Shown here: positions 1,046 to 61,258 of the stretch, piece after piece
Position numbering within the stretch: the stretch's first letter is position 1
Layout: each line of letters starts with the position of its first letter
Notes under the pieces: model-generated
The model's input: the letters and a program-made list of their open reading frames with translations, nothing else
What the model was told of the DNA's origin: nothing
The model's database searches: none
Position numbers and translations under genes: made by a program
NCBI GenBank assembly: GCA_945874765.1
Contig: CAMCHQ010000006.1
Coordinates: 1 to 64,000, forward strand
Reading direction: 5' to 3'
DNA from: an uncultured Clostridia bacterium
Lineage (GTDB): Bacteria; Bacillota; Clostridia; Oscillospirales; Acutalibacteraceae
Length of the DNA stretch: 64,000 bases

Positions 1046-2325
1046 TATTGAACTATCTTGGATTTTTAAGCTGTGCAGTTGAAATAATATTATCAATTTA
1101 TTTTTTCAAAGCATTTGGAAATTTTAAATATAAAAGAAAAATAGTTATACCATTAATTATTACTTTTTATATTTTATATTCTTTATCTTTATTCTTTATA
1201 AAGAACACCGCTATTGTATTTATCATAAGTATAGTGATAACATTTTGTGTTTCATTATTGTTTGATTTTAAAATATTCAATAAAATACTTTTATCAATAA
1301 TAATTTCAATTATTTCATCTATTTCTGAGTTCATTTTAGCAATTATATTAAGTGCTTTTACACACGATATTACTTCTGTAAATAAAAATGTTTTTTCGTA
1401 TATTACCGGACTTTTATTTTCTAAATTTATTACATATTTAATTATTTTACTAATTTATAAAAGTAAACATAAATTAATGAACGAAATAAGTAATTTAAAT
1501 ATGACATGTTTGATAGTACTACCTATTTCAACAATATTTGTTATAATATCGCAATATGAATTCATTTTAAATGAAAAACGTATTCCTTTGATGGTTTTGT
1601 CAACAATGGGTTTGTTTTTACTTATTATCTCAAACATATTGATTTTCTATATCATCGATAGGCAAAATGAATTGATAGTAATTCGAGAAAAATTAAATGC
1701 GAGTAAAAAACTGCTAAAAGTACAAGCGGATTACTATGATGAACTAATCGGTTCAGAAAAGGAAATAAGAAAAATTAGGCATAATTTAAAAAGTCTTTTT
1801 CTTGGTTTAAAATCAATGTTGCAAAAAAATCAAATCAATGATGTGATAGAAAAAATAAATGAAAATCTAAGCGAAATAGACAAACAAATAATTACCACAT
1901 CAGGTGGTTCAACAATTTTAGATATGGTTCTTTTATCTAAATGTAAACTATCACAATTAAAAGGAATCACGATTACTTCAAGTAAAAAAGTGCTTTCAGC
2001 AATAAAAATGGAGGATGTTGATCAAGCAGTTTTGTTTTCAAATATTCTCGATAATGCTATTGAAGCGACTGAAAAAGAAATTGTAAAGACAATTGATATT
2101 AATGTATATTCAGATAATAACAATTTTATATTTAAGTGTTCAAATCCGTGCTCAACAAATATTAATGTAGATAAATTAAATACGACTAAAATTGATGAAA
2201 GAAATCATGGTTTTGGTATATTGAGTATTAAATCTATCGTAGAAAAATATCACGGAGAATATGTTTTTTCAAGAAATGGCAAAATGTTTAATATAAGTCT
2301 AATTATCCCTAATATTGACACTTAA
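1036..2325 (+). CDS. GHKL-domain sensor histidine kinase (AgrC-like); GTG start
   Basis: Multiple N-terminal TM segments, IRHNLKS H-box region, NILDNAIEAT N-box, HGFGILSIKSIVEKYHGE G-box. Confidence 0.9.
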   Translation: MEIILNYLGFLSCAVEIILSIYFFKAFGNFKYKRKIVIPLIITFYILYSLSLFFIKNTAIVFIISIVITFCVSLLFDFKIFNKILLSIIISIISSISEFILAIILSAFTHDITSVNKNVFSYITGLLFSKFITYLIILLIYKSKHKLMNEISNLNMTCLIVLPISTIFVIISQYEFILNEKRIPLMVLSTMGLFLLIISNILIFYIIDRQNELIVIREKLNASKKLLKVQADYYDELIGSEKEIRKIRHNLKSLFLGLKSMLQKNQINDVIEKINENLSEIDKQIITTSGGSTILDMVLLSKCKLSQLKGITITSSKKVLSAIKMEDVDQAVLFSNILDNAIEATEKEIVKTIDINVYSDNNNFIFKCSNPCSTNINVDKLNTTKIDERNHGFGILSIKSIVEKYHGEYVFSRNGKMFNISLIIPNIDT

Positions 2326-2368
2326 GCCGAAAAATATAACGAATAGGACATATCTATTAACTTTAAAC

Positions 2369-2413
2369 AAAAAGAAGACTACAATACATTTAATGTATTG
2401 TAGTCTTCTTTTT
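2369..2413 (+). terminator. Hairpin with T-tract between agrC-like gene and agrB (terminator/attenuator)
   Basis: AAAAAGAAGACTACAATACAT-TTA-ATGTATTGTAGTCTTCTTTTTT, near-perfect inverted repeat. Confidence 0.8.
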
Positions 2414-2424
2414 TGAGGTATATT

Positions 2425-3021
2425 ATGTATAATTCAATGGCAAAAAAACTAACCGATTTTTTTATTTTAAAAAAGATCATAAAGGAAGAAGAAAAAAATG
2501 TATATGTTTATTGTTTTGAAGTAATGATTTCTTCTTTTGTATATTTAGTATTATTTTTTACAATCGCAATTGTTCTTAAATGTTTATTACAATCAATTCT
2601 GTTTTTAACAGGTTTTTGGATTATAAGAAGTGTTGCAGGAGGCTACCACGCTAAAACATATACACGGTGTCATGTGCTGTTTATGTCAAATCAAATTTTT
2701 ATGATATTATTATGCTCGCTTTTAACTAATTATACCAAACATATTTTATTATTTATTTTTCTGTTAATAAGTATTATTTCAATTTTTGTTTTTTCACCAG
2801 TTGAACATAAAAATAACAAACACAACTCAAAACAAATAAAAAAATTCAAATTTTTAAGTAGATTTTTAATTTTATTTATAACTATTATTTCATTAATTTT
2901 AGATAGAAATGGTTTTACTGAATATATTTTCCCTTTTGTTATCGGAAGTTTTTCAGTATCTTTTTCATTAATATTTGAAAAACTGAAAGATTGGAGGTGT
3001 AAAAATGAAGAAGTTCAATAA
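2425..3021 (+). CDS. agrB: AgrB-family accessory gene regulator / peptide-processing protease (ORF opens at 2413; ATG 2425 after GAGG favoured)
   Basis: IIRSVAGGYHAKTYTRC AgrB signature; multiple TM segments. Confidence 0.9.
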   Translation: MYNSMAKKLTDFFILKKIIKEEEKNVYVYCFEVMISSFVYLVLFFTIAIVLKCLLQSILFLTGFWIIRSVAGGYHAKTYTRCHVLFMSNQIFMILLCSLLTNYTKHILLFIFLLISIISIFVFSPVEHKNNKHNSKQIKKFKFLSRFLILFITIISLILDRNGFTEYIFPFVIGSFSVSFSLIFEKLKDWRCKNEEVQ

Positions 3022-3145
3022 TTTTTTGATGAAATTTGGTAGTACTTTTGCCGCATTGGCTATGATAATCGGTATGTCAACAAGTAATGCTGCTTGTAGA
3101 TTGTTTTTTTATCAAAACGAAGTCCCTGAAGAATTGAAAAAATAA
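3005..3145 (+). CDS. agrD: AgrD cyclic-lactone autoinducer prepeptide, 46 aa (absent from ORF track)
   Basis: MKKFNNFLMKFGSTFAALAMIIGMSTSNAACRLFFYQNEVPEELKK; GGAGG upstream; overlaps end of agrB; C...xEVPEEL layout typical of AgrD. Confidence 0.9.
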   Translation: MKKFNNFLMKFGSTFAALAMIIGMSTSNAACRLFFYQNEVPEELKK

Positions 3146-3154
3146 TGCCAATAA

Positions 3155-3189
3155 AAAAAGAAGTCATACAATTATTGTATGACTTCTTT
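3155..3189. terminator. Bidirectional terminator between agrD and convergent XRE gene
   Basis: AAAAGAAGTCATACAA-TTA-TTGTATGACTTCTTTT. Confidence 0.8.
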
Positions 3190-3657
3190 TACTTCTATAT
3201 TAAAGAGTTCTGATAGCAAAGTTATTTCGGTGATTGTAAATACTTCAATGCAATTTTCTTTGTTAATATATTTTAGTTCATCAATATTCAAGTGTTTTGA
3301 AACATCTAAATAAGATACTTTATTATTAATTCTAAGTTGCTTAATTATATTTGAAATATTCTTTTGGAATTCTATCATTTCAAATAAAAGATTGTTATTG
3401 CTTAAAATTTTATTAATATCTATTTTTTTATTTTCGTTTAAATTTGTCTCTATAAATAACGGAGTTGAAAAAAATATTATATTGTTAATTGGTATGTTAA
3501 ATATTTTTGAAATTAGAAAAATATAATTAATAGGGAAATCAAATCGATGTGATTCATACGCATGATATTTATATGCACTTATGTTCAATAATTTTGCAAA
3601 AGATGCTGTAGACATTTTATAAAACTTTCTTAACTCTTTAATATTATTATAATACAT
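3172..3657 (-). CDS. XRE-type HTH regulator (ORF open to 3702; ATG at 3657 likelier)
   Basis: MYYNNIKELRKFYKMSTASFAKLLNISAYKYHAYES... HTH-like N-terminus. Confidence 0.65.
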   Translation of the reverse strand: MYYNNIKELRKFYKMSTASFAKLLNISAYKYHAYESHRFDFPINYIFLISKIFNIPINNIIFFSTPLFIETNLNENKKIDINKILSNNNLLFEMIEFQKNISNIIKQLRINNKVSYLDVSKHLNIDELKYINKENCIEVFTITEITLLSELFNIEVKEVIQ

Positions 3658-3686
3658 TTTACTCACCAAAAATATTTTACTATAAC

Positions 3687-3779
3687 CAATACTAATAGTC
3701 AATAATATTGATTATTGTTTCTTTTAATATTTTTCACATAAGCTATACTAATAGTAAATAAAGTTATCTATTGGTATAG
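3687..3779. promoter_or_regulatory. Three copies of an operator-like 12-mer between divergent HTH genes
   Basis: CAATACTAATAG (3687-3698), CTATACTAATAG (3743-3754), inverted CTATTGGTATAG (3768-3779). Confidence 0.55.
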
Positions 3780-3791
3780 GCGGGTGTTTGT

Positions 3792-4133
3792 TTGGTTAAT
3801 GAATTAGGTAAATTGATAAAAAAGTATAGGAAAGAAAATAAACTTACGCAATTCGAATTTGCCGGACTTGTTGGAATAAGTGAATATTATGTAGGAGCAA
3901 TTGAACGAGGTAGTAAGGTGCCTGGTAGAGACACACTTATAAAGTTATCAAATCAGCTTGATGTTCCTATAGAACAATTATTAAATTATGAATCAAATTA
4001 TGAATTGAAAATTGAATCAGATATAATCTACACAGAAATTTGTAGTTTAAATTCTCAGCAAAAAGAATTCGTCTTGGATAGTTTAAAACGGATGACAAGC
4101 TTTTTTAAAAACCAAAACGATGAGAAGAAATAA
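3792..4133 (+). CDS. XRE-family HTH transcriptional regulator
   Basis: GKLIKKYRKENKLTQFEFAGLVGISEYYVGAIERGSKVPGRDTLIKLSNQLDV. Confidence 0.85.
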   Translation: MVNELGKLIKKYRKENKLTQFEFAGLVGISEYYVGAIERGSKVPGRDTLIKLSNQLDVPIEQLLNYESNYELKIESDIIYTEICSLNSQQKEFVLDSLKRMTSFFKNQNDEKK

Positions 4134-4269
4134 TTATTATTTCTTTACTTACACATAAGCCGTTTTTTATAACAGATAGGCAAATATCATTGATAAAATT
4201 AAATATAATGTTACTGTAAATTTATTATGATGTTATTTTTACAGTTATTCAAAAAAAGATTAATTTTTT

Positions 4270-4322
4270 AAAGAGCAGATATATAGTCCTGTGACTGGAA
4301 CTATAATTATCTGCTCTTTTAT
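4270..4322 (+). terminator. Intrinsic terminator
   Basis: AAAGAGCAGATA...TATCTGCTCTTTT followed by T-rich tract. Confidence 0.7.
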
Positions 4323-4415
4323 TTTTTTATATAAATTTTGGAATGAAATATGTGCTAAATATCCATAATCTTTGATTTTTGAAAATTCACAAATCAAAAA
4401 TCAAGGAGAATATAG

Positions 4416-4940
4416 ATGAAAAGGATATGTGAAATATATGATATTTCCAAAGATTATGAAATGCCAACAGGTACTGTTTTAATAATTGTCAGCGATATTG
4501 AAAAAGATAAAATTATTTCAATATTATTAAATACAAAATTAAAAGAAGATATGGTGTTTAATAACACCGAATGGCAAGAATATCTTGAAATTAACAACAA
4601 ATATAACCGTAACGAAGCTAAACATCAAATGCGAGAAATAAGGCAATCGAAAAGGCTTGAGAGTGATATTTCTCACATTTATGAAATTGATATAGGAGAA
4701 TCATTAGAAAATGAAGAAATTGAAATGTACTTAAAAAATTTCTTGTTAAATCTAAAACCTGTTCAAAGACGCAGGTTTGAAATGTATTACATAGATAACC
4801 TTACATATCGTCAAATAGCAGATATTGAAAAGCGAAATATCAAGTCAATTTATGAATCTGTACAAGCAGGAAAAAAGAAATTTTTAAAATATTTGGACAA
4901 ACACCCCAACAAAAATACCCCAACAAGTTTAAGTTTATGA
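4416..4940 (+). CDS. Sigma-70 region-4-like / HTH protein of integration module, copy A
   Basis: C-terminal RRRFEMYYIDNLTYRQIADIEKRNIKSIYESVQAGKKKFLK; homologous to 57373-57861. Confidence 0.7.
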   Translation: MKRICEIYDISKDYEMPTGTVLIIVSDIEKDKIISILLNTKLKEDMVFNNTEWQEYLEINNKYNRNEAKHQMREIRQSKRLESDISHIYEIDIGESLENEEIEMYLKNFLLNLKPVQRRRFEMYYIDNLTYRQIADIEKRNIKSIYESVQAGKKKFLKYLDKHPNKNTPTSLSL

Positions 4941-5254
4941 AAGGACATCCTTTCGTACAACTTAATACGCATTCATCAGATACTTTCCTGCTGTTGTGCA
5001 AAGCACAAGCCACTTTACCAATTACGCCAAGACGCATTAGCTGAGCGACAAATAATCGGTATAAAATTCGGACTGCTACCGAAACGGCGATAACAGGCAG
5101 CAGGTATAATGATACTCCTGCTCAGTCACAAGTCGAGCGTGATAAAACCGTCGCAACTAATGAGAGCAGCTCGGATGAACTCGGAGAGGTGAAACTCCTG
5201 TGGAGTCTGCTCGCAACAGACCGTTTGATGATTTCCTTTTGATAATTGGGGTGT
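4915..5254 (+). ncRNA. Candidate structured RNA, copy A
   Basis: Closed by ATACCCCAA(4915-4923)/TTGGGGTGT(5246-5254); internal helices covary with copy B at 57874-58219. Confidence 0.65.
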
Positions 5255-5282
5255 CGGGGACAAATTATATTATCTTCTGATA

Positions 5283-5321
5283 AAAGCCAACTGTAGTTAA
5301 TTCTGTGGTTGGCTTTTTACA
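5283..5321 (+). terminator. Terminator-like hairpin between structured RNA and mazF
   Basis: AAAGCCAAC...TTAATTCTG...GTTGGCTTTTT; equivalent hairpin with different stem but same loop in copy B. Confidence 0.65.
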
Positions 5322-5352
5322 TAGGCAAAAGTCTATGAAGGAGGTATATAAA

Positions 5353-5724
5353 ATGAAAGACAAAAAAATACTCAGAGGCGATATGTTTTATGCTAATCTC
5401 GGTAGAGGTATAGGTTCGGAGCAAAAAGGCTACCGACCAGTTCTTGTTATTCAAAATGATGTCGGTAACAAATTCAGTCCTACAGTAATTGTTGCTTCTA
5501 TAACAAGTAGAGTCGGAATCAAAGCAAAGCTGCCTACGCATTATTTCATAAACACAGAAGACGGACTCCAAGCTCCGTCTATTATTTTGCTTGAACAAAT
5601 AAGAACGATTGATAAAAAACGACTTGATTCATATATAGGTCATTTAAGTCAAAAGAATATTGACGGCGTTAATGAGGCTATATTGATTAGCTTAGGATTT
5701 AATGATAGGGATGTGTCTTTATAA
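5353..5724 (+). CDS. mazF: MazF/PemK-family toxin-like endoribonuclease, copy A (ORF opens at 5305; ATG 5353 after GGAGG)
   Basis: LRGDMFYANLGRGIGSEQKGYRPVLVIQND...VIVASITS...LLEQIRTIDKKRL. Confidence 0.9.
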   Translation: MKDKKILRGDMFYANLGRGIGSEQKGYRPVLVIQNDVGNKFSPTVIVASITSRVGIKAKLPTHYFINTEDGLQAPSIILLEQIRTIDKKRLDSYIGHLSQKNIDGVNEAILISLGFNDRDVSL

Positions 5725-5757
5725 TATAATGAAAATAATTAAAAGGAAAAATAATCT

Positions 5758-5946
5758 ATGGAAAAGGTTTTAATGAGCATCAAAGAGGTTTGCGAGTATA
5801 CAGGGTGGGGAATGACCAAAACTCGTGAGATATTGAAGCGAAGTGATAGCGATTTTACAATACGAGTAGGAAACAGACTGTATGTAAACAAGAAACTTTT
5901 TGATGATTACTTAGTCAAGTGTGCGAAAAACAAAACAGATATTTAA
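5758..5946 (+). CDS. xis: Excisionase-like HTH protein, copy A
   Basis: SIKEVCEYTGWGMTKTREILKRS...VGNRLYVNKKLFDDYL; directly upstream of integrase. Confidence 0.8.
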   Translation: MEKVLMSIKEVCEYTGWGMTKTREILKRSDSDFTIRVGNRLYVNKKLFDDYLVKCAKNKTDI

Positions 5947-6018
5947 TCGCATAATTGCTGATTTTGAAAAAAATGAGTATTATTTGAAGTGTAATATCGA
6001 TATTTCAAATAAAGCGAA

Positions 6019-7233
6019 ATGAGGCGTTATCTTATGGGAAAGGATATAAACGGTAAAGAACTGGGGAAGGGAATTACCCAAAGAAATGACGGACGATATA
6101 ATGCAAGAGTAACAATAAATGGTGTGAAGATTAATTTATATGATTATAATTTGTCATTGCTGAAAAAGAATTTAGAAGCAAAAAAATTGAAGGTTTTACG
6201 AGATGATTATTCAACCAGACCTAATATAAGTTTAAATCAATGGTATAAAGATGAATGGTTTCCCGTATATAAATCGCCATATCTAAAAGATGAAGTTAAT
6301 CGTCACAATTATATTGTTCGTTACGAAAATACTTTCGGTAGGTTGCTAGGAAACAGAAGAATTAGTTGCATAACAGAAATACTAATACAAAAAGCAGCTA
6401 ATTCTTTAATAGATGATTTTGGCTACAGTACAAAATTTATAAGAGAAAGCGTTTCCTCATTGAAGGAAGCATTTAATGCAGCTGTGACGAATCATTTGAT
6501 AAGCCGAAATCCGTCTTCAAATATAGTTGTTAAAAATGATAATCTTGTATCGGAGCGTGTAGTTATGACAGATGAACAGCAAATGCAATTTTTAAATATT
6601 GCAAAACACAGATATTACAGTGAGGTGTATCAAATACTATTGTCTACAGGAATGAGAATAGGCGAATTGACAGGACTTCAATGGGATGACATTGATTTTG
6701 AAAATAAAGAAATTCATATCAGGCACTCTATGCAGACGGCTTATCTTAACGGTAAGAAAATTTTGAATATGACAACACCGAAAACTTCTAACTCAATTCG
6801 TGATATCCCGATGTTTGACGGTGTTGAAAAGTTGTTTGTTTCTTGGAAAGAAAAACAAGATAAAGCTAAAAAAGAATTGGGTAGACGATGGAGATTGCCT
6901 AAAGAATTTGAAAATTTGGTTTTTACAAGTTCTTTGGGTTCACCATTAACAAGATATGTTCTTTCAAATGATATAAATAAAATAGTTAGTATATTGAATA
7001 AAAACGAAGAATATTTGGCAGAACAGGAAAACAGAAAACCACAAAAGTTTCCGAAAATTCATCCACATTCGTTTAGACATACTTTTGCAACCCGATGTTT
7101 TGAGAAAAACTTGAAACCTGTTTTCATTATGAGTATAATGGGACACAGTAATTATGAAACTACATTGTCCTATACTCATTTGCTGAAAAAATCAAACGAC
7201 CAACAGGTCAGTTTGGCAGGTTCTTTTGTATGA
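6019..7233 (+). CDS. int: Tyrosine recombinase / Tn916-type integrase, copy A (likely start 6034)
   Basis: STGMRIGELTGLQWDDID, HPHSFRHTFATRCFE, MGHSNYETTLSYTHL catalytic motifs. Confidence 0.95.
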   Translation: MRRYLMGKDINGKELGKGITQRNDGRYNARVTINGVKINLYDYNLSLLKKNLEAKKLKVLRDDYSTRPNISLNQWYKDEWFPVYKSPYLKDEVNRHNYIVRYENTFGRLLGNRRISCITEILIQKAANSLIDDFGYSTKFIRESVSSLKEAFNAAVTNHLISRNPSSNIVVKNDNLVSERVVMTDEQQMQFLNIAKHRYYSEVYQILLSTGMRIGELTGLQWDDIDFENKEIHIRHSMQTAYLNGKKILNMTTPKTSNSIRDIPMFDGVEKLFVSWKEKQDKAKKELGRRWRLPKEFENLVFTSSLGSPLTRYVLSNDINKIVSILNKNEEYLAEQENRKPQKFPKIHPHSFRHTFATRCFEKNLKPVFIMSIMGHSNYETTLSYTHLLKKSNDQQVSLAGSFV

Positions 7234-7415: not shown

Positions 7416-7430
7416 CAAATCAACGGCTAA
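7416..7430. repeat. Candidate attachment-site direct repeat (left), CAAATCAACGGCTAA
   Basis: Exact 15-bp match to 61110-61124 beyond the second int. Confidence 0.4.
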
Positions 7431-7463: not shown

Positions 7464-7499
7464 AAACGGCTTAAAACCAACGGTTTTAAGCCGTTTTTA
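7464..7499. terminator. Strong terminator-like hairpin
   Basis: AAACGGCTTAAAACC-AAC-GGTTTTAAGCCGTTTTT. Confidence 0.75.
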
Positions 7500-7733: not shown

Positions 7734-8564
7734 ATGATGTCAAAATGCAAAACGATTGCGATATGCAATCAAAAAGGTGGTGTTGGAAAGACAACCACAA
7801 CAGTAAATCTCGGTGTAGGATTAGCAATGAAAGGTAAAAGAGTTTTGCTTGTTGATGCAGACCCACAGGGAGATTTAACAGTAAGTCTTGGGTGGAAAGA
7901 TAATGACAATTTATCAATTACACTCGCAAACAAGATTATGGACTTTATTCAAGATAAGAACAGTTTCCCTGATGATGTTATTCTTCATCATGCGGAGGGC
8001 GTAGATTTAATTCCGGCAAATTTGGAATTGTCTGCACTTGAATTAAGCCTTGTTAATGCTATGAGCAGAGAGGTAGCACTTAAAGGATATTTGAATACAG
8101 TTAAAGATAAGTATGATTATATCCTTATTGATTGTATGCCCTCACTCAGTATGATAACGGTTAATGCTCTTTCCTCCGCAGATAGTGTAATTATTCCTGT
8201 TCAGGCACAATTCCTTTCTGCAAAGGGTATGCAACAGCTCGTACAAACCATAGCAAAGGTAAAAAGGCAAATTAACCCTCATTTGAAAATTGACGGAGTT
8301 CTCTTTACTCTCGTCGACAGCAGGACAAATCTTGCGAAAAGTACGCAGGATGCTATTAAATTTGCTTATGGTAAGAATGTTAAAATATTTAATACTAATA
8401 TACCTATTGCAATTAAGGCTGCTGAAACAAGCTCAAAGGGAAAAAGCATATATACTTACGCTCCAAAAAGCACAGTAGCACAGGCTTATGAAGAATTGAC
8501 AAAGGAGGTGCTCGGAATTGCGCAAAGAGAGAAACACAGATTTTATGCTGAACAGTTTAGATGA
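7734..8564 (+). CDS. parA: ParA/Soj-family partition ATPase
   Basis: AICNQKGGVGKTTTTVNLGVGLA deviant Walker A; VDADPQGDLT. Confidence 0.95.
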   Translation: MMSKCKTIAICNQKGGVGKTTTTVNLGVGLAMKGKRVLLVDADPQGDLTVSLGWKDNDNLSITLANKIMDFIQDKNSFPDDVILHHAEGVDLIPANLELSALELSLVNAMSREVALKGYLNTVKDKYDYILIDCMPSLSMITVNALSSADSVIIPVQAQFLSAKGMQQLVQTIAKVKRQINPHLKIDGVLFTLVDSRTNLAKSTQDAIKFAYGKNVKIFNTNIPIAIKAAETSSKGKSIYTYAPKSTVAQAYEELTKEVLGIAQREKHRFYAEQFR

Positions 8565-9456
8565 TTTGTTTACATCTCAAAACGAGAGAGATAACGGATA
8601 TTTGCCTAATATACAGGATATTCCGTTAGAACTTCTTGACGATTTCCCTAACCACCCATTCAAAGTGCGTGATGATGAAGATATGCTCAAGCTCATTGGA
8701 AGTGTTTCCGAGCGTGGTGTTCTCGTTCCTGCCATTGTAAGACCAAAGGCAGATGGCAGATATGAACTCATATCAGGACACCGAAGAAAAAGAGCAAGCG
8801 AATGTGCTGAAAAGAAAACACTTCGTTGTATGGTATCGGATTTAGATGATGATGCCGCTACTATTATAATGGTAGATAGTAATATTCAAAGAACTGATAT
8901 ATTACCAAGTGAAAAAGCATTTGCTTATAAGATGAAACTTGATGCAATGAAACATCAAGGACAACGCACAGATTTAACTTCTCGCCCAGTGGGCAAGAAG
9001 TTATTATCAATAGAAAAACTTGCCGAAGATGTAGATGAAAGTTCAAGACAAATTCAACGATATGTTCGCTTGACTTATCTTGTGCCGGAACTTCTTGAAA
9101 TGGTTGACGAAGGCAGAATTAAAATGCGACCTGCCGTAGAAATATCATATCTTGATGAAGATAATCAGCGTGATTTGGTAGATGCCATTGATACGGAAGA
9201 TTGCACACCCTCACACGCACAAACTATCAAAATGCGTAAATTCTTTGACGAGGGCAAATTAAGTTCTGATATCATAACATCAATTATGCAAGAGGAAAAA
9301 CCAAATCAAAAGGAAAAAATTGTCATTCCAAACAAGACGGTTGAGAAATATATCCCAAAGTCCATTCCTGCCGAAAAAAGACAGGATTATGTTTGCAAGG
9401 CTTTGGAGCATTACGGTAAATATTTGCAAAGAATGAGGGATAGAGAAAGCAGGTAA
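8518..9456 (+). CDS. parB: ParB-family partition/nuclease-like protein
   Basis: ISGHRRKRASECAEKKTLRCMV, NIQRTDILPSEKAFAYKMKLDAMKHQG; TTG start after AAGGAGG. Confidence 0.9.
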   Translation: MRKERNTDFMLNSLDDLFTSQNERDNGYLPNIQDIPLELLDDFPNHPFKVRDDEDMLKLIGSVSERGVLVPAIVRPKADGRYELISGHRRKRASECAEKKTLRCMVSDLDDDAATIIMVDSNIQRTDILPSEKAFAYKMKLDAMKHQGQRTDLTSRPVGKKLLSIEKLAEDVDESSRQIQRYVRLTYLVPELLEMVDEGRIKMRPAVEISYLDEDNQRDLVDAIDTEDCTPSHAQTIKMRKFFDEGKLSSDIITSIMQEEKPNQKEKIVIPNKTVEKYIPKSIPAEKRQDYVCKALEHYGKYLQRMRDRESR

Positions 9457-10243: not shown

Positions 10244-10277
10244 AAAAAGAGCCGAGATCTAATCGGCTCTTTTTTTG
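10244..10277 (+). terminator. Intrinsic terminator
   Basis: AAAAAGAGCCGA-GATCTAA-TCGGCTCTTTTTTTG. Confidence 0.85.
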
Positions 10278-10309
10278 TTTCTAAATTTTAAGTGAAAGGA
10301 TGGATTTTT

Positions 10310-13300
10310 TTGAAAAAGAAATTCAAACAGTTAGTGGCAATGCTTTTGTCATTGCTTATTATCATTTCAACATTTCCGGCAACGGTTTATGCGTCAACCT
10401 TCATAACAGATATGAATAGTGACGCAGAGTTCGGTATAGTGAGTGGAAGTTACGATAAATACGGACACGAGATGCACTATGCCAAATATGACGGCAAAAC
10501 ATATATTGTGTTTTGTGTGCAGTATGAAAAGACTTCTCCTACGGGTACAACATACGAATACGGAAAAGATTTTGTTAAGTATGTAAACCGTTCGGGAGAT
10601 ACTTACAGGAAAATAGCCGACTATATCGCATTCGGATATACATTGCAGTACGGTGACGGTTTACCAAACACAAAAGCAGAATGGATTGCCGCCTGTTGTA
10701 CGCAACAATTTGTTTGGGAAACGCTCGGTGTTAATCCCACAAGATCATCGTGGGACAGCACATATATGAGTGATAGTCTGTATAAATCTTGGCTTGCCGA
10801 CACAGAGGACTTGATTGATTTGTACTATAACAAGCAAGTATCCTTTAACGGCAGTATAAAGACAATCAATCTCGGTGGCTCTGTTACTCTTACAGACTCA
10901 AATGGTGTGCTGAAATATTATCCGACATTTTCAAAAACAATTGATAAAGTTACTTTTTCGCACACAAAAGGCGAAAACAAGTTGACAGTATCAGTTGCAG
11001 AAAACTGCACAACTCATTCAGTTAAATTCAAATCTGTATCGCATAATATTTTTATGGATTTACCAACAGGAGATAGTTATGATTCCGATACAATGAACTA
11101 TGTGTATTTTGATTTTGACAACGGAGATATTCAAAATCTTATGTTTTCAAAACAAGCCGATCCGCAGACTTTCGCTGTTGATATTAATGTTCAGTTCGGT
11201 AATTTAAAAATCACAAAGACATCAGAGGATAATATCGTTAAAGGAATGGTGTTTACCGTTAAAGGAAACGGTAAAACCTACACAATGACTACCGATGCAA
11301 ACGGTACGGCAGAGCTTAACAATATTCCTGTTGGTACTTATACAATAAGTGAAAACGATATTATCAGATATGTTAAACAGACAGACAAAACCGTTACAGT
11401 ATCAGACGGAAAAACAGCTAATGTGTCATTTAATAATATCTTGAAGAAATTCAGGGTAACTGTTACCAAGAGTGATATTGAAGAAGGACATGCACAGGGT
11501 GATGCCAAATTAAGCGGCGCAGTATATGGTATCTATAAAGGAGAACAGCTCATTGATACCTATACAACTGATGAAAACGCATCTTTCGCAACAAAGTATT
11601 ATGTTTGTGATGATGATTGGACTATCCGTGAAATCACGGCAAGCGAGGGATATTTGCTTGATACCCGTGTGCATAAAGTCGGTGCAGAGCCTAAGCTCTA
11701 TACCGTTGAATTCAATGACACGGCAAATGCAGTAACAGAACAGGTCATCAAAGGCAACATTGCTATTATCAAGCATACAGATGACGGCTCTACTCAAATT
11801 GAAACTGCTGAAAAAGGTGCAGAATTTCAAATCTATCTTAAATCGGCAGGCTCATTTGTAAATGCAGACAAGGACGAAAGAGATACCATCGTTTGTGATG
11901 AGGACGGTTTTGCAAGTTCAAAACTTTTGCCCTACGGTGTTTACACAGTACACCAAACAAAAGGTTGGGACGGACGAGAGAAAATAAAGGACTTTGATGT
12001 GTTTATCAACTCTGACGGCAAGACCTATAAATTCCTTATCAACAATGCTAACTTTGAAAGCTATCTCAAGGTTGTAAAACTTGATAAGGAAACAGGAAAA
12101 CAGATTGCATACGAGGGTGCGGCTTTTGAAATATATGATAGTGACGGACACCGTGTTAATATGCAATTTACCTATCCGCAGGTAACAACAATTCACACAT
12201 TCTATACCAATAGCGAGGGTTATCTCATAACTCCCGAAAAGCTCCCATATGGTGATTATACACTCGTTGAAGTTCAGGCTCCATACGGATATGTTCTTGA
12301 CTCAACACCTATTCCGTTTACCATTACACAGGAAAACAGTTCAACTGATACAGGTGTAACGGTAGTTAAGGTTAAAGCAAGAGATATGGCACAGAAAGGC
12401 ACAATCAGCATTACAAAAACAGGCGAAATCTTTTCAAGTGTTGATGTAACCGATGATGTTTACACACCACAGTATAGTGTTGGAAATCTTAAGGATGCAG
12501 TATTCGAAATTTACGCAGCCGAGGACATTACAACACTTGACGGAACAATAAGATACTATCAGGGCGAGAAGGTCGATGAGATTACCACCGGAGCAAATGG
12601 CATTGCAAAATCAAAGCAGTTATACCTCGGTAAATATACAGTAATCGAGAAAACTGCTCCAAACGGCTTTGTAAATTCAAACGAACAGTATGATGTAGAA
12701 CTGACTTATGCAGGACAGAATGTTTCTGTTACCTCAACTGCTCTTACTGTCAACAATGACAGACAGAAAGTAACTGTATCACTTGAAAAAGCACTTGAAA
12801 AAGATAAGCTCTTTAATATCGGTGATAATGACGAAATCTTGTCTGTTAAGTTTGGTGTTTTTGCAAATGAAGATATAATTGCCGCAGATGGCTCAATTAT
12901 TCCAAAAGATGCATTAATAACTTATGCAAATTGCAATGAGAAAGGTAAGATCTCCTTTGGTTGTGATTTACCAATCGGTTACAGGTTTTATGTTAAGGAA
13001 ATCGCAACAGATGAGCAGTATATTCTTTCCGATACAAAATACGAGTTTGAAACTGCTTATGCCGGACAGGAAACAGAAGTCATTGCAATAAATATCAATG
13101 ACGGCAAGCCGATTGATAACACTATTAAAAGAGGAAAGGTATCAGGCGTAAAGAAAGACGAAAACGGCAACGCACTCGGCGGAGCTTTAATAGGTCTATT
13201 CAAAGCAGACACAACAGAATACACAAAGGAAAATGCCTTAATGACTGCCACATCTGCTGATGACGGCAGTTTTTATTTTGACAATGTGCCTTATGGTAAT

Positions 13301-14134
13301 TGGTGTGTTAGAGAAATAGCGCCCCCTACTGCTTTTGTTCTCAATGAGCAGATTTTTGATGTCAACATAGCCGAAAATGAACAGGTAGTTGAAATTGAAA
13401 TTGTCAACAAATTTATACGAGGCAATATCGCTTTAACAAAGGTTGACAAGGACTATCCCGATAACAGGCTCACAGGAGCAGAATTTGAAGTATTTGAGGA
13501 TACTAACGGCAATGGCAAATATGACAACGAGGATAAGTCAGTCGGCAAATTAACCGAAATTGAAACAGGTATTTATGCTATGAATGACCTTGTTTACGGT
13601 CAGTATTTTGTCCGTGAAATTAAGGCACCTGAAAACTTCCTCCTTGACGAAAATGTTTATTCTGTATTCATTGATACAGACGGCAAAACCTACATTGTCG
13701 AAAATGAGGCAGGTGTAGGCTTTATCAATGCTGCTATGACAGGCTCGCTGAAAATCATCAAAACATCTTCGGACGGTAAAGTGGAGGGCTTTTCTTTCCG
13801 TGTAACAGGTGTAAACGGATATGACAAAACATTCAAGACCGATAAAAACGGAGAAATCCTCATTGAAAACCTCCGTATCGGCGAATATCACATAGCAGAG
13901 GTTTCGGACAAGGTTTCCGCAGGCTACATCTTGGCTGATGATAAGGACGCAACTGTTAAGGCAGATGCAACTACCATAGTTAAGATGCACAACGAGAAGA
14001 AAAAGACTCCAAAAACAAGTGATAACATCAACAAGAGAGCATTAGCTACGGCTATGAGCGTATCTGCACTTGGAGCAGTATCACTTGCTTGTTATCTTCT
14101 CAAAAAGAAAAAGAACAATAAGGAGGAAAAGTAA
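10310..14134 (+). CDS. Surface adhesin: signal peptide, thioester-type domain, multiple Cna-B/SpaA repeats, C-terminal sorting signal (TTG start)
   Basis: YIVFCVQYEK and CTQQFVWE; repeated Y(T/S)(I/V)xE...FxN Cna-B cores; TPKTSDN + hydrophobic helix + KKKKNNKEEK. Confidence 0.85.
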   Translation: MKKKFKQLVAMLLSLLIIISTFPATVYASTFITDMNSDAEFGIVSGSYDKYGHEMHYAKYDGKTYIVFCVQYEKTSPTGTTYEYGKDFVKYVNRSGDTYRKIADYIAFGYTLQYGDGLPNTKAEWIAACCTQQFVWETLGVNPTRSSWDSTYMSDSLYKSWLADTEDLIDLYYNKQVSFNGSIKTINLGGSVTLTDSNGVLKYYPTFSKTIDKVTFSHTKGENKLTVSVAENCTTHSVKFKSVSHNIFMDLPTGDSYDSDTMNYVYFDFDNGDIQNLMFSKQADPQTFAVDINVQFGNLKITKTSEDNIVKGMVFTVKGNGKTYTMTTDANGTAELNNIPVGTYTISENDIIRYVKQTDKTVTVSDGKTANVSFNNILKKFRVTVTKSDIEEGHAQGDAKLSGAVYGIYKGEQLIDTYTTDENASFATKYYVCDDDWTIREITASEGYLLDTRVHKVGAEPKLYTVEFNDTANAVTEQVIKGNIAIIKHTDDGSTQIETAEKGAEFQIYLKSAGSFVNADKDERDTIVCDEDGFASSKLLPYGVYTVHQTKGWDGREKIKDFDVFINSDGKTYKFLINNANFESYLKVVKLDKETGKQIAYEGAAFEIYDSDGHRVNMQFTYPQVTTIHTFYTNSEGYLITPEKLPYGDYTLVEVQAPYGYVLDSTPIPFTITQENSSTDTGVTVVKVKARDMAQKGTISITKTGEIFSSVDVTDDVYTPQYSVGNLKDAVFEIYAAEDITTLDGTIRYYQGEKVDEITTGANGIAKSKQLYLGKYTVIEKTAPNGFVNSNEQYDVELTYAGQNVSVTSTALTVNNDRQKVTVSLEKALEKDKLFNIGDNDEILSVKFGVFANEDIIAADGSIIPKDALITYANCNEKGKISFGCDLPIGYRFYVKEIATDEQYILSDTKYEFETAYAGQETEVIAININDGKPIDNTIKRGKVSGVKKDENGNALGGALIGLFKADTTEYTKENALMTATSADDGSFYFDNVPYGNWCVREIAPPTAFVLNEQIFDVNIAENEQVVEIEIVNKFIRGNIALTKVDKDYPDNRLTGAEFEVFEDTNGNGKYDNEDKSVGKLTEIETGIYAMNDLVYGQYFVREIKAPENFLLDENVYSVFIDTDGKTYIVENEAGVGFINAAMTGSLKIIKTSSDGKVEGFSFRVTGVNGYDKTFKTDKNGEILIENLRIGEYHIAEVSDKVSAGYILADDKDATVKADATTIVKMHNEKKKTPKTSDNINKRALATAMSVSALGAVSLACYLLKKKKNNKEEK

Positions 14135-16790: not shown

Positions 16791-19700
16791 ATGCCTAATA
16801 AATTTGAGCTGATTACAAAAGCATACAGTGATGGGTGTGCTGATGTAATTCGCTCCCCTCAAAATTGGTGTGAATTTCTTTCTTCTGCCTGCTATAATTA
16901 CCGCTTGCGTTTTGATGAACAACTCCTTATTTTCCTTCAAAGACCTGACGCAACGGCAGTTCTTGAATTTGAAAAGTGGAACAAGAGGTTTAACCGTAAA
17001 ATAAACCGAAACGCAAAAGGTATTGCAGTATTCGCAGATGTTGAAAGAACGAAAATAAAACACTACTTTGATATTTCCGATACTAACGAAAATGAATTAT
17101 CCCGCCCTGTCCCTATATGGAAATATAAGGACGAGTATGAGAATGATGTTATTGAAACACTTGAAAACACCTTCGGTACTTTAAGCAATAAAAACGATAT
17201 TGTTGATGCAGTAATGTCAGCCGCAGATAACGCAGTTGAGGACAATACCGTTGACTATATCGCAGAGCTGCCGAATATTAAGAATGACAGTTTTCTTGAA
17301 GAACTCGACGATGACAGTATTTCAACAATATATCGCAGAGTAATCAAAAACAGTGTTGCCTTTATGGTGCTTACAAGACTTGGAATAAATGCAAACGAGT
17401 ATTTCAGCCGTGAAGATTTTGAGGACGCAGTTAATTTCAATACTACCGAAACTCTTAATGCTCTCGGCTACGCAACAAGTGATATTACGGAAATAGCACT
17501 TAATGAAGTGTCAAAAACCGTACTGTCATTGGAAAAATCAAATCGCATAATTGCAAAAACCGAAAAGGCAGAATATATTAAAGCCGAAAACAAAAATATA
17601 GAAAGGAGTGTTTCAAATGACACAAATCACTTACAGAAAACAGGGCGAAGTGCAGATACCGAACTTGGTACTTCCGACACAGAAGAATTTGACATTGAGC
17701 AGATATGGTCAGTTGAGGAAAAAGTTTCTCAAGGAGGAGCATCGTCTGCTGTATTACAACCTTTTGACAACGGGCAAGCTCGACAGCCATCTGCAAGAGG
17801 TGGACGAGAGAGCGAAATCAATGGAGGAATCATTGATGAAGAAAATGTCAGTTCAGGAGGGCTTGACCGAAGAGCTGAAAGCAACCGACCAAATGGCTTG
17901 GGTGCAGGGAATGAACAACTTGAAACAGAGGGTGCAGGAAATCGTGATGAAAGAGGTAATTTACGCTCTGTAACTGATGAATTACCACCGTTTTTGGATA
18001 ATGATTTGATTATGGGTGTTCTTGAAAATTCCGATGATGATTTAGTTTATAAAAAATCGTTCATTGCGGAAAAATTCAAGGAATTGAGCGAAAGAGAAAG
18101 AATACCATTTACTCAAACTCTCTACGGTGGGCGTTTTACAGAATACAACATCAACAATACAATAGTCGGCTTAAAAGCAGAAAAGGACGGACTTCTTATG
18201 TACGAGGGAACTTACAAATCTCGCACAAAGGAGTCCGGTTTTTCTTGGGAAATTGTTGCAGAGCTTATTGGTCAGTTGATTGATAGCGGAAAATACCTGC
18301 CGAAAGAAAAGAAAGAACAGGAACAAGAACAATCTGCACAAATCGGTTTATTTGACTATGTTGCCGATATACCCGAAGAACAACATGTTGACGAAAGCAA
18401 TCAGGTTTCTTTATTTACCGACTTCGGTGTATCACAGCAGATTATTGATGAGGCTCTTTGTATCGGTGCCAATGATACAAACAGTACACTTGATATTGCG
18501 ATGTTCTTTCGTCGTGACAGAGGTACAGAGTACAATACTGAATTTCTTAAAAAACACTATAAAACTAACGGCGCAGGCTTTTATTTCAATAACGAACAGG
18601 TATCAGTTTGGTATAACGAAAACGGCTTTAATGTTGCAAAAGGCACTACTGCTCAAAAGCCTTCCGCTACCCATTTAACTTGGGAACAGGTTGCAAAGCG
18701 TATTCGTGCATTGCTTGATATGGGCAGATATATTCCACAGGAAAAACTTGATATGATTGATGACAGAGAATTATCCATTGTGTCCGACCGTATCATTGCT
18801 TTTGTTCGTGATATGGACGATGAAGAAAGCTCTGAATATTTACCGAGAGGTAAAAAGATTGTTGACAATGTTCTCGGCTATCCTGATGAAGTTGCTGCTC
18901 TAAAAGAGTATTTGTCGGACGGTAATAATAGTGTTGCATTATTTAGAGAATACTCAAAATTTGCAAAGGCTTATGAAAACGGAATGATTAATCTATATAA
19001 ATACAATTACGAATATTCCGTGCCTTATGTATATGAAGTATTCAAGGGTATGCAAATTGAGCCTATCAATTTCAAAACTGCTGATGATTTTAACCCTAAC
19101 AGGCAATACTTTATTTCAAACGATGAAATTGATAATTTCCTTCGCAGAGGAAAAAGCAGTGCCGAAAGCAGATTTAGGATATACACAGGATTTGTCAGCA
19201 GACCTGAACGAGCAGACAGGGTAAAATTCATCAAGGATTATTACGGTTTAAGCGGCTCTTATTCGGGCAATGACAATTTAGATAGCTCTCCAAAAGGTTT
19301 AACAATAAGTCACGGCAATATAATGGAGCCATACGCAAAGGTAGTCTTAAAATGGAGTCAGGTTGAAAAGCATATTGATGATATGATTAAAAACAACCGT
19401 TTCTTTTATGACAGCGACTTTGACGAATTGCAGAACATATACAAAAGAGATATATCATATTCAGTCGAGAGTTTTTTCAATGACCTGCCTGATGAATATG
19501 CTAAACCGTACCCAAAGGAAACCGAAACATACAATATAAGCTATGTAGTTCGTGACAAACTCGATAATCCGCAGGAGCTTGACAACATTGAAAAAATGAT
19601 GTCTGATGCAATGGATTTGATGGGCGAGGATTACAACGGTTATAAGTATCGTAAACAGGAATATGATGATTTTGTTGCTTTCAAAAACGGTACTTATGCT

Positions 19701-57128: not shown

Positions 57129-57201
57129 AAATCTTGCATTTTTTAGCGTATTAATAAAAACTTTTTTAGAAAAATAATTTTAAAGATAACAATTATATTA
57201 G

Positions 57202-57249
57202 AAGCAGTTATAACTTTCAAAACTTTTTGAAAGTTATAACTGCTTTTTT
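57202..57249 (+). terminator. Strong intrinsic terminator after glycan cluster
   Basis: AAGCAGTTATAACTTTCAAAA-CTT-TTTGAAAGTTATAACTGCTTTTTT. Confidence 0.9.
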
Positions 57250-57372
57250 GTTATCCTACGGAGAAATTTGAAGGGATAACAATGATAGAACTCTGGCAGG
57301 AATATATAGCAAAATATCCATAAGCTCTGAATTTTTGAAATTCAAGACAATTCAAAATTCGGAGGTTTAAAT

Positions 57373-57861
57373 ATGAAGAAGATTTGTGAAATATATGATA
57401 TTTCTCAAGAATATGAAATGAAAGAAAAATCAGTTTTGATATGTGTAAGTGATTTAGATAAGGACAAGTTATTTGAAATACTGCCCGAACTAAAAAGCAA
57501 TTTCAGCGAAATTTTTGATAATTGTGAATGGCAAGAATATTTAGAAATAAATAAAGCCTATAACCGAAACGAATCTAAACACTATATGCGTGAAATAAGA
57601 CAATCAAAAAGAGTTGAAGCAGATGCTTTAATGAGGTACGAAACAGATACCATTAATGAAATCCTAAACAATTCTGAATTGAAAACCAAAATTGAATTTG
57701 CGTTATCAACTTTAGCACCTGTTCCGAAAAGAAGATTCTTAAAACACTATTCAGAACGCCTTACATACAGAGAAATAGCAAAGGAGGAAAATAAAGCAGT
57801 ATCAACGATTTATGAATCGGTAATGACTGCACGAAAAAAGTTTTTGAAAAATTTTGAATGA
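57373..57861 (+). CDS. Sigma-70 region-4-like / HTH protein of integration module, copy B
   Basis: Homologous to 4416-4940; KRRFLKHYSERLTYREIAKEENKAVSTIYESVMTARKKFLK. Confidence 0.7.
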   Translation: MKKICEIYDISQEYEMKEKSVLICVSDLDKDKLFEILPELKSNFSEIFDNCEWQEYLEINKAYNRNESKHYMREIRQSKRVEADALMRYETDTINEILNNSELKTKIEFALSTLAPVPKRRFLKHYSERLTYREIAKEENKAVSTIYESVMTARKKFLKNFE

Positions 57862-57873
57862 TATCCCGAACAA

Positions 57874-58219
57874 AACACCCCAAACAAGTTGAAGTTTATG
57901 AAAGGACTTACTTTCATACAACTGAATAAGTCAGTCATTAAATACATTCCTGTTGTTGTGAAAAGCACAAGCCACCTTAATAATTACGCCAAGACGCATT
58001 ACGCCGAGCGAACAATAATTATTATAAAAATCGGATTGCTACCGATTTGGCGATAACAGACAGCAGGCATAATGATACTCCCACCCAGTCACAGTCCGAG
58101 CGTGAAAAAACCGTCGCAGGCAATGAGGGTGGCTCGGAGCAACTCGGAGAGGTGAAATTCCTGTGGAGCTGATTAGCAAACAGCCGTTTAATGATTCCTT
58201 ATTTGCAATTCGGGGTGTT
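57874..58219 (+). ncRNA. Candidate structured RNA, copy B
   Basis: Closed by AACACCCC(57874-57881)/GGGGTGTT(58212-58219); covarying helices with copy A. Confidence 0.65.
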
Positions 58220-58247
58220 GAGGACAAATAGAATTGCTTTCATATAC

Positions 58248-58280
58248 AACAGCCGATGGATTAATTCTGTCGGCTGTTTC
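58248..58280 (+). terminator. Terminator-like hairpin between structured RNA and mazF, copy B
   Basis: AACAGCCGA...TTAATTCTG...TCGGCTGTT. Confidence 0.55.
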
Positions 58281-58314
58281 TTACATAGGCAAAGTCTATT
58301 AAGGAGGTTTATTT

Positions 58315-58683
58315 ATGAAAGGTAAAATTCTAAGAGGAGATATTTTTTATGCTGATTTAGGCAGAGGAATAGGCTCCGAGCAAAAAGGATACAGACCTGT
58401 ACTTATTATTCAAAATAATATAGGCAACAAATACAGTCCTACTGTTATTGTTGCATCAATTACAAGTAAAGTCGGAGTAAAAGCAAAACTGCCCACGCAT
58501 TATTTTGTTAATACCGAAAGCGGTCTTGAAGCACCATCGGTTGTTCTGCTTGAGCAAATACGGACTATTGATAAAAAGCGATTAGATTCATATATAGGTC
58601 ATTTAAGTGATACGCACATTAACTATATAGATAAAGCTCTTGCCATAAGTGTAGGACTTCAAGATAAATATTTATACACATAA
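58315..58683 (+). CDS. mazF: MazF/PemK-family toxin-like endoribonuclease, copy B
   Basis: LRGDIFYADLGRGIGSEQKGYRPVLIIQNN; close homologue of copy A. Confidence 0.9.
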   Translation: MKGKILRGDIFYADLGRGIGSEQKGYRPVLIIQNNIGNKYSPTVIVASITSKVGVKAKLPTHYFVNTESGLEAPSVVLLEQIRTIDKKRLDSYIGHLSDTHINYIDKALAISVGLQDKYLYT

Positions 58684-58713
58684 TATATATGAAAATAATT
58701 AACGGATAAGAAG

Positions 58714-58914
58714 GTGTCAATGTTAATGGAAAAAGTATTATTAAGTATTAAGGAAGTTTGTGAGTATACCGGTTGGGGTATGACAAAAACAAGAGAAATA
58801 TTAAAAAGATCTGAAAGCAGATTTACAGTTAGAGTAGGGAATAGACTATATGTAAATAAAGAACTTTTTGATGAATATTTAGTCAAATGTGCAAAATATC
58901 AGATTGATATATAA
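58714..58914 (+). CDS. xis: Excisionase-like HTH protein, copy B
   Basis: SIKEVCEYTGWGMTKTREILKRSESRFTVRVGNRLYVNKELF. Confidence 0.8.
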   Translation: MSMLMEKVLLSIKEVCEYTGWGMTKTREILKRSESRFTVRVGNRLYVNKELFDEYLVKCAKYQIDI

Positions 58915-59000
58915 TCGCATAATTGAAAGATTTGAAATAATGATTATCATTGTGAGTGTAATATCGATATTTCAAATTTTAAGAAATGAGGTAATTTTTT

Positions 59001-60206
59001 ATGGGCAAAGATTTAAAAGGAAAGGAAATAGGTAAAGGTTTTCATCAAAGAAAAGACGGTAGGTATGAGGCAAGAGCTCAAATAAACGGAAAGACAATAG
59101 ATATTTGTAATAAAAGTTTGACTGCTTTGAGAAAGATATTTGATGAAGAAAAAGCGAAGGCATTAAGAAATGAATATAATATTAGACCGAATGAAACATT
59201 GTTATCGTGGTATAATGAGTGGTTTGAGAAGTGTAAAGCTCCTCAACTGAAAAATGAAATGTGTGCTAAAAAATATGATGCAAAAATCAAGAATACATAT
59301 TTATCTATTCTTGGTGAGAAAAAACTTGAGTATTTATCTCAGTTAGATATTCAACAGGCAACTAATGAACTTATAACAAAAGGTTATGTTCAAAGAACAT
59401 TGGAGGAAGCATTAAGTGCAATTAAACAATGTATAGATGCTGCAATTGCTAATAAAATAATGCAGCATAATGTGTGTCTTGGTGTATGTGTAAAAGATGC
59501 TAAACCTATTGCCGAACGAAGAGTTCTTGAGCATTGGGAACAGGATTTGTTTATATCTCAGATTAAAGGAACATTTTATTATGAGCCATATATGATCCTG
59601 ATGCTTACAGGAATGAGAATAGGGGAGTTTTCTGCATTGAGATGGAGCGATATAGATTTCTATAAAAAAGAAATCTATATTAAACGTTCTATGTCAACTG
59701 CATATATAGATGGTACAAAATATGAAGAGATAACTTCTCCAAAAACAATATCAGGTTTCAGAACTATACCATTCTTTAGTAATGTGGAACAGTTATTTAA
59801 GGACTGGAGAGATAAACAGAATATTTGTAAAAGTAAAATGGGGAATAGATGGAGAGCAAAAGAAGAATTTGGGGATTTAGTTTTTACTACAAAATATGGC
59901 TCTCCCTTAACAAGATATGCTTTAGCGCATACCACTCAGATTATAGTTAAAAATATGCGTGCTATTGAAGGGTATAATGCTCAACAAGAAGGGCGAGAGC
60001 CAAGATTTATTGATAATATATATCCTCACGCATTCAGACATACTTTTGCAACAAGATGTTTTGAAAAAAAGATGGAGCCGTACTTTGTTCAAAAAATTAT
60101 GGGACATGCAAATTACAGTACAACATTATCCTATACTCATATATTAGAAAATAAATCTAATATGGAAAGAATGAAAGGTGAGGATTTGCTGGGATTGGTA
60201 TCATAG
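59001..60206 (+). CDS. int: Tyrosine recombinase / Tn916-type integrase, copy B
   Basis: LTGMRIGEFSALRWSDID; YPHAFRHTFATRCFE; MGHANYSTTLSYTHI. Confidence 0.95.
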   Translation: MGKDLKGKEIGKGFHQRKDGRYEARAQINGKTIDICNKSLTALRKIFDEEKAKALRNEYNIRPNETLLSWYNEWFEKCKAPQLKNEMCAKKYDAKIKNTYLSILGEKKLEYLSQLDIQQATNELITKGYVQRTLEEALSAIKQCIDAAIANKIMQHNVCLGVCVKDAKPIAERRVLEHWEQDLFISQIKGTFYYEPYMILMLTGMRIGEFSALRWSDIDFYKKEIYIKRSMSTAYIDGTKYEEITSPKTISGFRTIPFFSNVEQLFKDWRDKQNICKSKMGNRWRAKEEFGDLVFTTKYGSPLTRYALAHTTQIIVKNMRAIEGYNAQQEGREPRFIDNIYPHAFRHTFATRCFEKKMEPYFVQKIMGHANYSTTLSYTHILENKSNMERMKGEDLLGLVS

Positions 60207-60339
60207 TATTTTATGATGTAATATGTTTTAGAGCAAGCAATATCGCTTGCTCTTTTATCCTTGTTGCAAAAATACTTTTAATATGTTAGTATAGAATAAA
60301 CTATATGTTATGAAATATTGAAAACAGAGGTAATTATGC

Positions 60340-61109: not shown

Positions 61110-61124
61110 CAAATCAACGGCTAA
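61110..61124. repeat. Candidate attachment-site direct repeat (right), CAAATCAACGGCTAA
   Basis: Exact 15-bp match to 7416-7430. Confidence 0.4.
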
Positions 61125-61258
61125 TTGAAATTTCAAATAAAATTTCATAACCTATTTGAACCCGTTAAAACGCACTGTTTTAGCGGGTTCTTGCTGTTTT
61201 TACACAATTGAAAATTTTTTATACTTTAGACAGTGAATGCATTTAACATTTAATAAAT

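Follow-up and report, generated by a model that had tools for sequence, protein, structure and literature searches.

Two RNA copies in adjoining mobile-element modules

The window, by which we mean the whole stretch of 64,000 nucleotides analysed here, carries two modules of the same gene order, in which Pfam identified a sigma-like gene, mazF, a Tn916-type excisionase gene (xis) and a tyrosine integrase gene (int), with a structured RNA lying between the sigma-like gene and mazF. One module spans 57373-60206 and the other 4416-7233, both on the + strand, and their RNAs are referred to as copies B and A, respectively (Table 1). The intergenic stretches of the two copies show a mean column identity of 82% when aligned, and both match the Rfam covariance model RF02913 (pemK RNA), with 59.5 bits for copy B and 57.9 bits for copy A against a gathering score of 34.8, so that the window RNA is a member of a described family. 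Rfam files this family as Cis-reg only, with no function assigned to it, and its model spans 61 positions. The first-pass annotation had placed copy B, at 57874-58219, in a second and independent sigma/RNA/MazF/Xis/Int module. The Pfam order and the RF02913 score bear out the module; the element is likewise real, but its limits are somewhat different, running from a hairpin and boxA-like motif (57898-57928) through a 3' hairpin, after which comes a terminator.

Table 1. Features of the two modules and of ICE B in the window
Feature	Position	Strand	Details
RNA, copy A	4950..5268	+	boxA-like motif 4950-4967; P1 about 4972-4979/5225-5232; core 5106-5203
3' parts, copy A	5242-5268; 5285-5314	+	3' hairpin, then terminator
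ICE B left att core, also the ICE A right end	7416..7430	+	
Terminator just inside ICE left end	7466..7494	+	Position of Tn916 T1
parA and parB	7734..9456	+	Start of ICE B conjugation operon (Pfam)
Intrinsic terminator within ICE B operon	10244..10274	+	
Strong intrinsic terminator	57200..57247	+	22-bp stem and T tract; parts cargo operon from module
Sigma-70 region-4-like protein	57373..57861	+	Sigma70_r4_2 PF08281, E 1.8e-5, just under curated cut-off
Hairpin (boxB-like)	57898..57917	+	atGAAAG-gactta-CTTTCat; directly 5' of, and overlapping, boxA-like motif
boxA-like motif, copy B	57911..57928	+	CTTTCATACAACTGAATA; diverged from family consensus
P1 5' strand	57933..57943	+	AGTCATTAAAT; pairs with 58186-58196
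pemK RNA core, copy B	58069..58166	+	First 3 nt ATA, counterpart of the bases altered in canT(S3)
P5 hairpin	58167..58185	+	GCTG/CAGC in copy B; GTCTG/CAGAC in copy A
P1 3' strand	58186..58196	+	GTTTAATGATT
3' hairpin	58206..58236	+	CAATTC-GGGGTGTTGAGGACAAATA-GAATTG, conserved loop
Intrinsic-terminator-like hairpin, RNA-mazF gap	58250..58276	+	
MazF/PemK-like toxin	58315..58683	+	PemK_toxin PF02452, E 5.9e-33
Tn916-type excisionase	58714..58914	+	Tn916-Xis PF09035, E 2.5e-7
Tyrosine integrase	59001..60206	+	Phage_integrase PF00589, E 3.2e-25
Intrinsic terminator 3' of int	60230..60253	+	
Right att core, end of ICE B	61110..61124	+	CAAATCAACGGCTAA

The two att cores form a 15-bp direct repeat, CAAATCAACGGCTAA, which is identical to the 3' end of tsf, covering the last codons of EF-Ts (ending in KQING and the stop), and in a genome of the same genus (G364) the stretch similar to the ICE right end breaks off at window position 61125. 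On the basis of the repeat, the tsf match and this break in similarity, we assigned ICE B to 7416-61124, about 53.7 kb. Module A ends at 7416 and is therefore part of a second ICE that abuts ICE B, so the module of copy B does belong to a separate ICE, but to one adjacent to, and in tandem with, the ICE of copy A. The 3' end of tsf was thus the integration site of two ICEs in tandem. An intact tsf sits on another contig of the same genome (L199, contig C14), with a near-identical terminator and then another recombinase-like gene.

Downstream of parA and parB, the ICE B operon encodes Toprim (26091), a relaxase (28471), VirD4 (31753) and a VirB4-like ATPase (35779), all recognised by Pfam. Near its left end, 3' of a terminator, lies a SpaA-type repeat adhesin of 1280 aa (10292-14134). 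No recognised antitoxin gene adjoins MazF in either copy (58315-58683 and 5305-5724). We also observed a short leader-like ORF, MIELWQEYIAKYP followed by a stop, at 57282-57323, 5' of the sigma-like gene; similar peptides of the pattern M..W....xxYP-stop occur 5' of the RNA in six other sites, for example MDLQSWQAAVAAYP in L091 and MKIMWQCYFAKYP in L107, each ending at a stop, and this leader is possibly a conserved uORF.

RNA architecture beyond the Rfam model

The RNA is real and conserved, and the support for its structure is comparative rather than drawn from single-sequence folding energy, which was unremarkable (MFE z -0.43 for copy A and -1.73 for copy B). Usually 130-260 nt 5' of the core, the family carries a boxA-like 19-mer with the consensus GNWCYTTGAMAAYTGAATA, matched at 14 or more of its 19 positions in 55 of the 84 sites vs 0.8% of shuffles, and sharply bounded, with conservation near 0 bits on both sides of the 19 bases. 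The rRNA leaders of two RNA-carrying genomes, G108 and G599, inspected in place of the host, contain the same boxA motif before 16S (GTTCCTTGAAAATTGAACA and GGTCATTGAAAACTGAACA). The search of the host assembly for an rRNA leader boxA found no 16S start, the rrn leader of G343 gave a weak match to the motif, and no 16S was present within the stretch of pBM400 that was read. The motif is strong in the family and in Tn916, where it equals the consensus exactly, but diverged in both window copies (CTTTCGTACAACTTAATA in copy A); same-genus relatives have CTTTCATAAACTGAATA. A hairpin usually lies 5' of boxA, with a mean folding z of -2.45 over 60 sites, a few of which are terminators, and the copy A counterpart of the boxB-like hairpin is GAAAGGacatCCTTTC.

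A closing helix, P1, forms between the bases directly 3' of boxA and a strand that lies about 20 nt past the core. Native partners gave a mean score of 10.25 vs 7.25 for swapped ones, none of 5000 permutations reached the native mean, and all four Watson-Crick pairs occur at each of seven positions among 28 distinct strands; between close relatives, TCATCAAA/TTTGATGA in L175 corresponds to TCATTAAA/TTTAATGA in copy B. The start of the core, A(T/C)AATGATACT, is almost invariant across the family. The 3' hairpin has a different stem in copy A than in copy B; 29/84 sites carry its loop motif GGGGTGTYGAGGACAAATA within 220 nt, and no shuffle does. We did not adopt an outer ACACCCC/GGGGTGT stem, to which the limits given in the first-pass annotation point; this pairing is doubtful because GGGGTGT forms part of that conserved loop. 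Tandem copies were seen in L033 (four, 5292-6725) and L034 (two, 4613-5571), each with its own boxA-like motif and spaced about 430-890 nt. The four in L033 are the shortest forms of the RNA, and they reveal a minimal unit of boxA, P1 and core.

Distribution and genomic context of the family

RF02913 was found in 139/394 genomes of the order, 26/399 of the phylum and 17/60 of the genus, and in none of 14 control genomes. An exact pattern search across the genome contigs gave no matches. Gene context was read in the 78 of the 84 sites taken that had at least 3 kb downstream. A same-strand recombinase lay within 4 kb downstream in 63 of these 78 (tyrosine-type in 27, serine-type in 37), ParA was downstream in 10, and one or the other was present in 71. 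A sigma-like gene preceded the RNA in 49/78 sites and MazF followed it within 4 kb in 23/78. These counts do not agree with the constant sigma/RNA/mazF co-occurrence for which the first-pass annotation had proposed a survey; its view of the RNA as a stable part of the integration module holds in that the RNA is conserved in such mobile-element modules, but not in any tie to an integrase clade or to MazF.

The element usually has no pemK/mazF adjoining, so the family name is misleading. Copies lie either at the recombinase end, from where transcription would run over the junction once the element is circular, or immediately ahead of parA/parB, in some cases with no recombinase; what stays constant is thus that the RNA heads a mobile-element operon, and neither MazF nor an integrase clade.

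The pemK core coincides with Tn916 canT

In Tn916, canT is a proven cis-acting processive antiterminator that lies between orf8 and xis, acts processively on distant and heterologous terminators, and is required for conjugation and dispensable for excision, with no rescue in trans (PMC11658703). Only in the excised element does it bring the transfer genes under its promoter, and the overlapping orf5 was shown not to work as a protein (PMC11658703). Two lesions abolished antitermination and sharply lowered conjugation: canT(S3), which replaces ATA by TGC at nt 283, counted from the orf8 stop, and a 162-nt deletion of nt 229-390 (PMC11658703).

In the pCF10 Tn916-family element (L053), RF02913 matches canT with 55 bits (E 1.2e-8) at 16923-16823, minus strand. 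Position 16923 is nt 283 after the orf8 stop; the bases altered in S3 are precisely the first three of the match, all of which is lost in the inactive deletion. Both lesions therefore map onto the RF02913 match, and the published genetics already demonstrate that antitermination requires the pemK core. The pemK family corresponds to the core of canT, an identity that appears to have gone unrecognised: a literature search that had most subscription papers outside its reach found no paper joining pemK RNA to canT, and the canT study makes no mention of Rfam and states that it did not assess how the RNAs of relatives fold (PMC11658703).

The canT and window RNAs share an RF02913 core with a ATAATGATACT start, a boxA-like motif and a covarying P1, as well as a sigma-like gene 5' (in the window at the position of Tn916 orf7) and a Tn916-type xis 3', then int; in both Tn916 and the window, terminators stand at the element left end and within the operon. 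The window copies differ from canT in that mazF separates the RNA from xis, a terminator follows the RNA directly, boxA is diverged, and there is an extra 3' hairpin with a GGGGTGTYGAGGACAAATA-type loop that is absent from Tn916; an orf8-like gene is missing from the gap between the sigma-like gene and the RNA. A related stretch occupies the same place in the vanB Tn1549-type element of pMG2200, in the order sigma / HTH / RNA / xis / int, and neither the Tn916 nor the Tn1549 RNA copy is accompanied by MazF.

A functional analogue is conAn2 of pLS20, a large RNA that heads a Gram-positive conjugation operon and gives processive antitermination (PMC8955417); its bipartite system differs in needing the protein ConAn1 for processivity. 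No RF02913 match was found in pLS20 1200-6500 at E up to 5. A short stretch of the conAn2 region (L054 3205-3255), GCGAGTGACGGTTTTCACCGGTCGTAGACGGCAAG, resembles the pemK insert CGAGCGTGATAAAACCGTCGCAGGCAATGAG, and a distant relationship between conAn2 and canT is possible from this resemblance. The put and EAR antiterminator RNAs also act by RNA-based antitermination in cis, and boxA-dependent rRNA antitermination has in common with the pemK family the boxA-like 19-mer of its leaders. To our knowledge, the pemK core has no counterpart in the rRNA boxA, put or EAR systems.

Proposed mechanism and alternative explanations

We consider it quite likely that the window RNA is a canT-type cis-acting processive antiterminator. 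It would be made near the start of a transcript initiating 5' of the sigma-like gene, where we infer the promoter to lie, and the nascent RNA would offer the boxA-like sequence and then the P1-closed folded domain holding the pemK core. Together these would modify the elongating polymerase, probably through putative recruitment of Nus factors, and the modified polymerase would pass the terminators before mazF and after int. After excision and circularisation it would also cross the ICE junction and pass the terminators just inside the left end and within the ICE B operon; with these terminators ignored on the circle, parA/parB and the conjugation genes would be expressed mainly from the excised circle. 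The terminators sit where the antitermination model needs them, and antitermination by the window copies themselves would follow by analogy with Tn916. In the tandem array, copy A already stands upstream of the ICE B left-end terminator and parA, so some read-through is predicted even before excision.

Several observations run against the antiterminator reading. Both window boxA motifs are diverged, and single-sequence z-scores are weak. The active Tn916 canT fragment is 452 bp and begins at nt 126 (PMC11658703), five bases into a boxA that starts at nt 121, so the first five boxA bases are dispensable there. Across 81 sites, predicted terminators downstream of the RNA showed no excess on the transcribed strand (48, vs 46 on the opposite strand and 3 in shuffles), and their enrichment does not discriminate between strands.

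Alternatively, the RNA could be a local attenuator or riboswitch that senses something and governs only the adjacent terminator, thereby controlling mazF-xis-int, as might be expected from the Cis-reg class in Rfam and from the terminator hairpin that lies within about 60 nt 3' of both window copies and ahead of mazF. We hold this to be unlikely, as Tn916 canT directly precedes xis and works processively on distant, heterologous terminators (PMC11658703), the terminator stems of copies A and B differ, and no alternative terminator pairing with the conserved RNA was seen by eye. The succession of RNA, terminator and MazF-fold toxin, with mazF 3' of both copies, also resembles type III systems, in which case the RNA would be an antitoxin neutralising MazF; the scarcity of MazF across the sites, its absence beside the Tn916 and Tn1549 copies, and the nature of the window RNA as a single folded unit rather than short tandem repeats make this very improbable.

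The first-pass annotation had proposed a regulator of excision, a trans-acting RNA or a partner of Int/Xis or MazF, and the RNA does lie beside xis and int, in the two window copies as in many relatives. It also precedes serine recombinases, and parA/parB with no recombinase; mutation of canT leaves excision normal, and there is no complementation of the mutants in trans (PMC11658703). All of these proposals are disfavoured by a Tn916 homologue that acts in cis on transcription and is dispensable for excision, and control of excision by a trans-acting RNA or an Int/Xis partner has, in our estimate, barely any likelihood. We rejected a conserved coding stretch or leader ORF, to which we give next to no chance: copy B has a short open frame, VELISKQPFNDSLFAIRGVEDK, at its 3' end, but a one-base indel before GGGGTGT breaks it between the copies, conservation tracks the covarying helices with their compensatory changes, and Tn916 orf5 does not act as a protein (PMC11658703).

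Significance

Rather than a partner of excision or of a toxin, the RNA is with good probability a processive antiterminator. For the pemK family as a whole, we judge it on balance probable that it represents one widespread class of processive antiterminators, built of boxA plus pemK core and stackable in tandem, which links expression of the transfer operon to excision in ICEs whose recombinase is of the tyrosine or serine type. If true, this class would combine, in its mechanism, boxA recruitment of the rRNA type with a new RNA domain.

The link between pemK and canT offers a function for an RNA family that had none assigned and was named after the wrong gene, and supplies the comparative structure that the canT study had stated as not pursued. 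It makes testable how antibiotic-resistance ICEs such as Tn916 and Tn1549 (vanB) hold back expression of their transfer genes until they have excised. In many gut-bacterial mobile elements this RNA very probably turns on transfer genes, and if this RNA switch is common to them, conjugation in gut Firmicutes would have a general control point in it.
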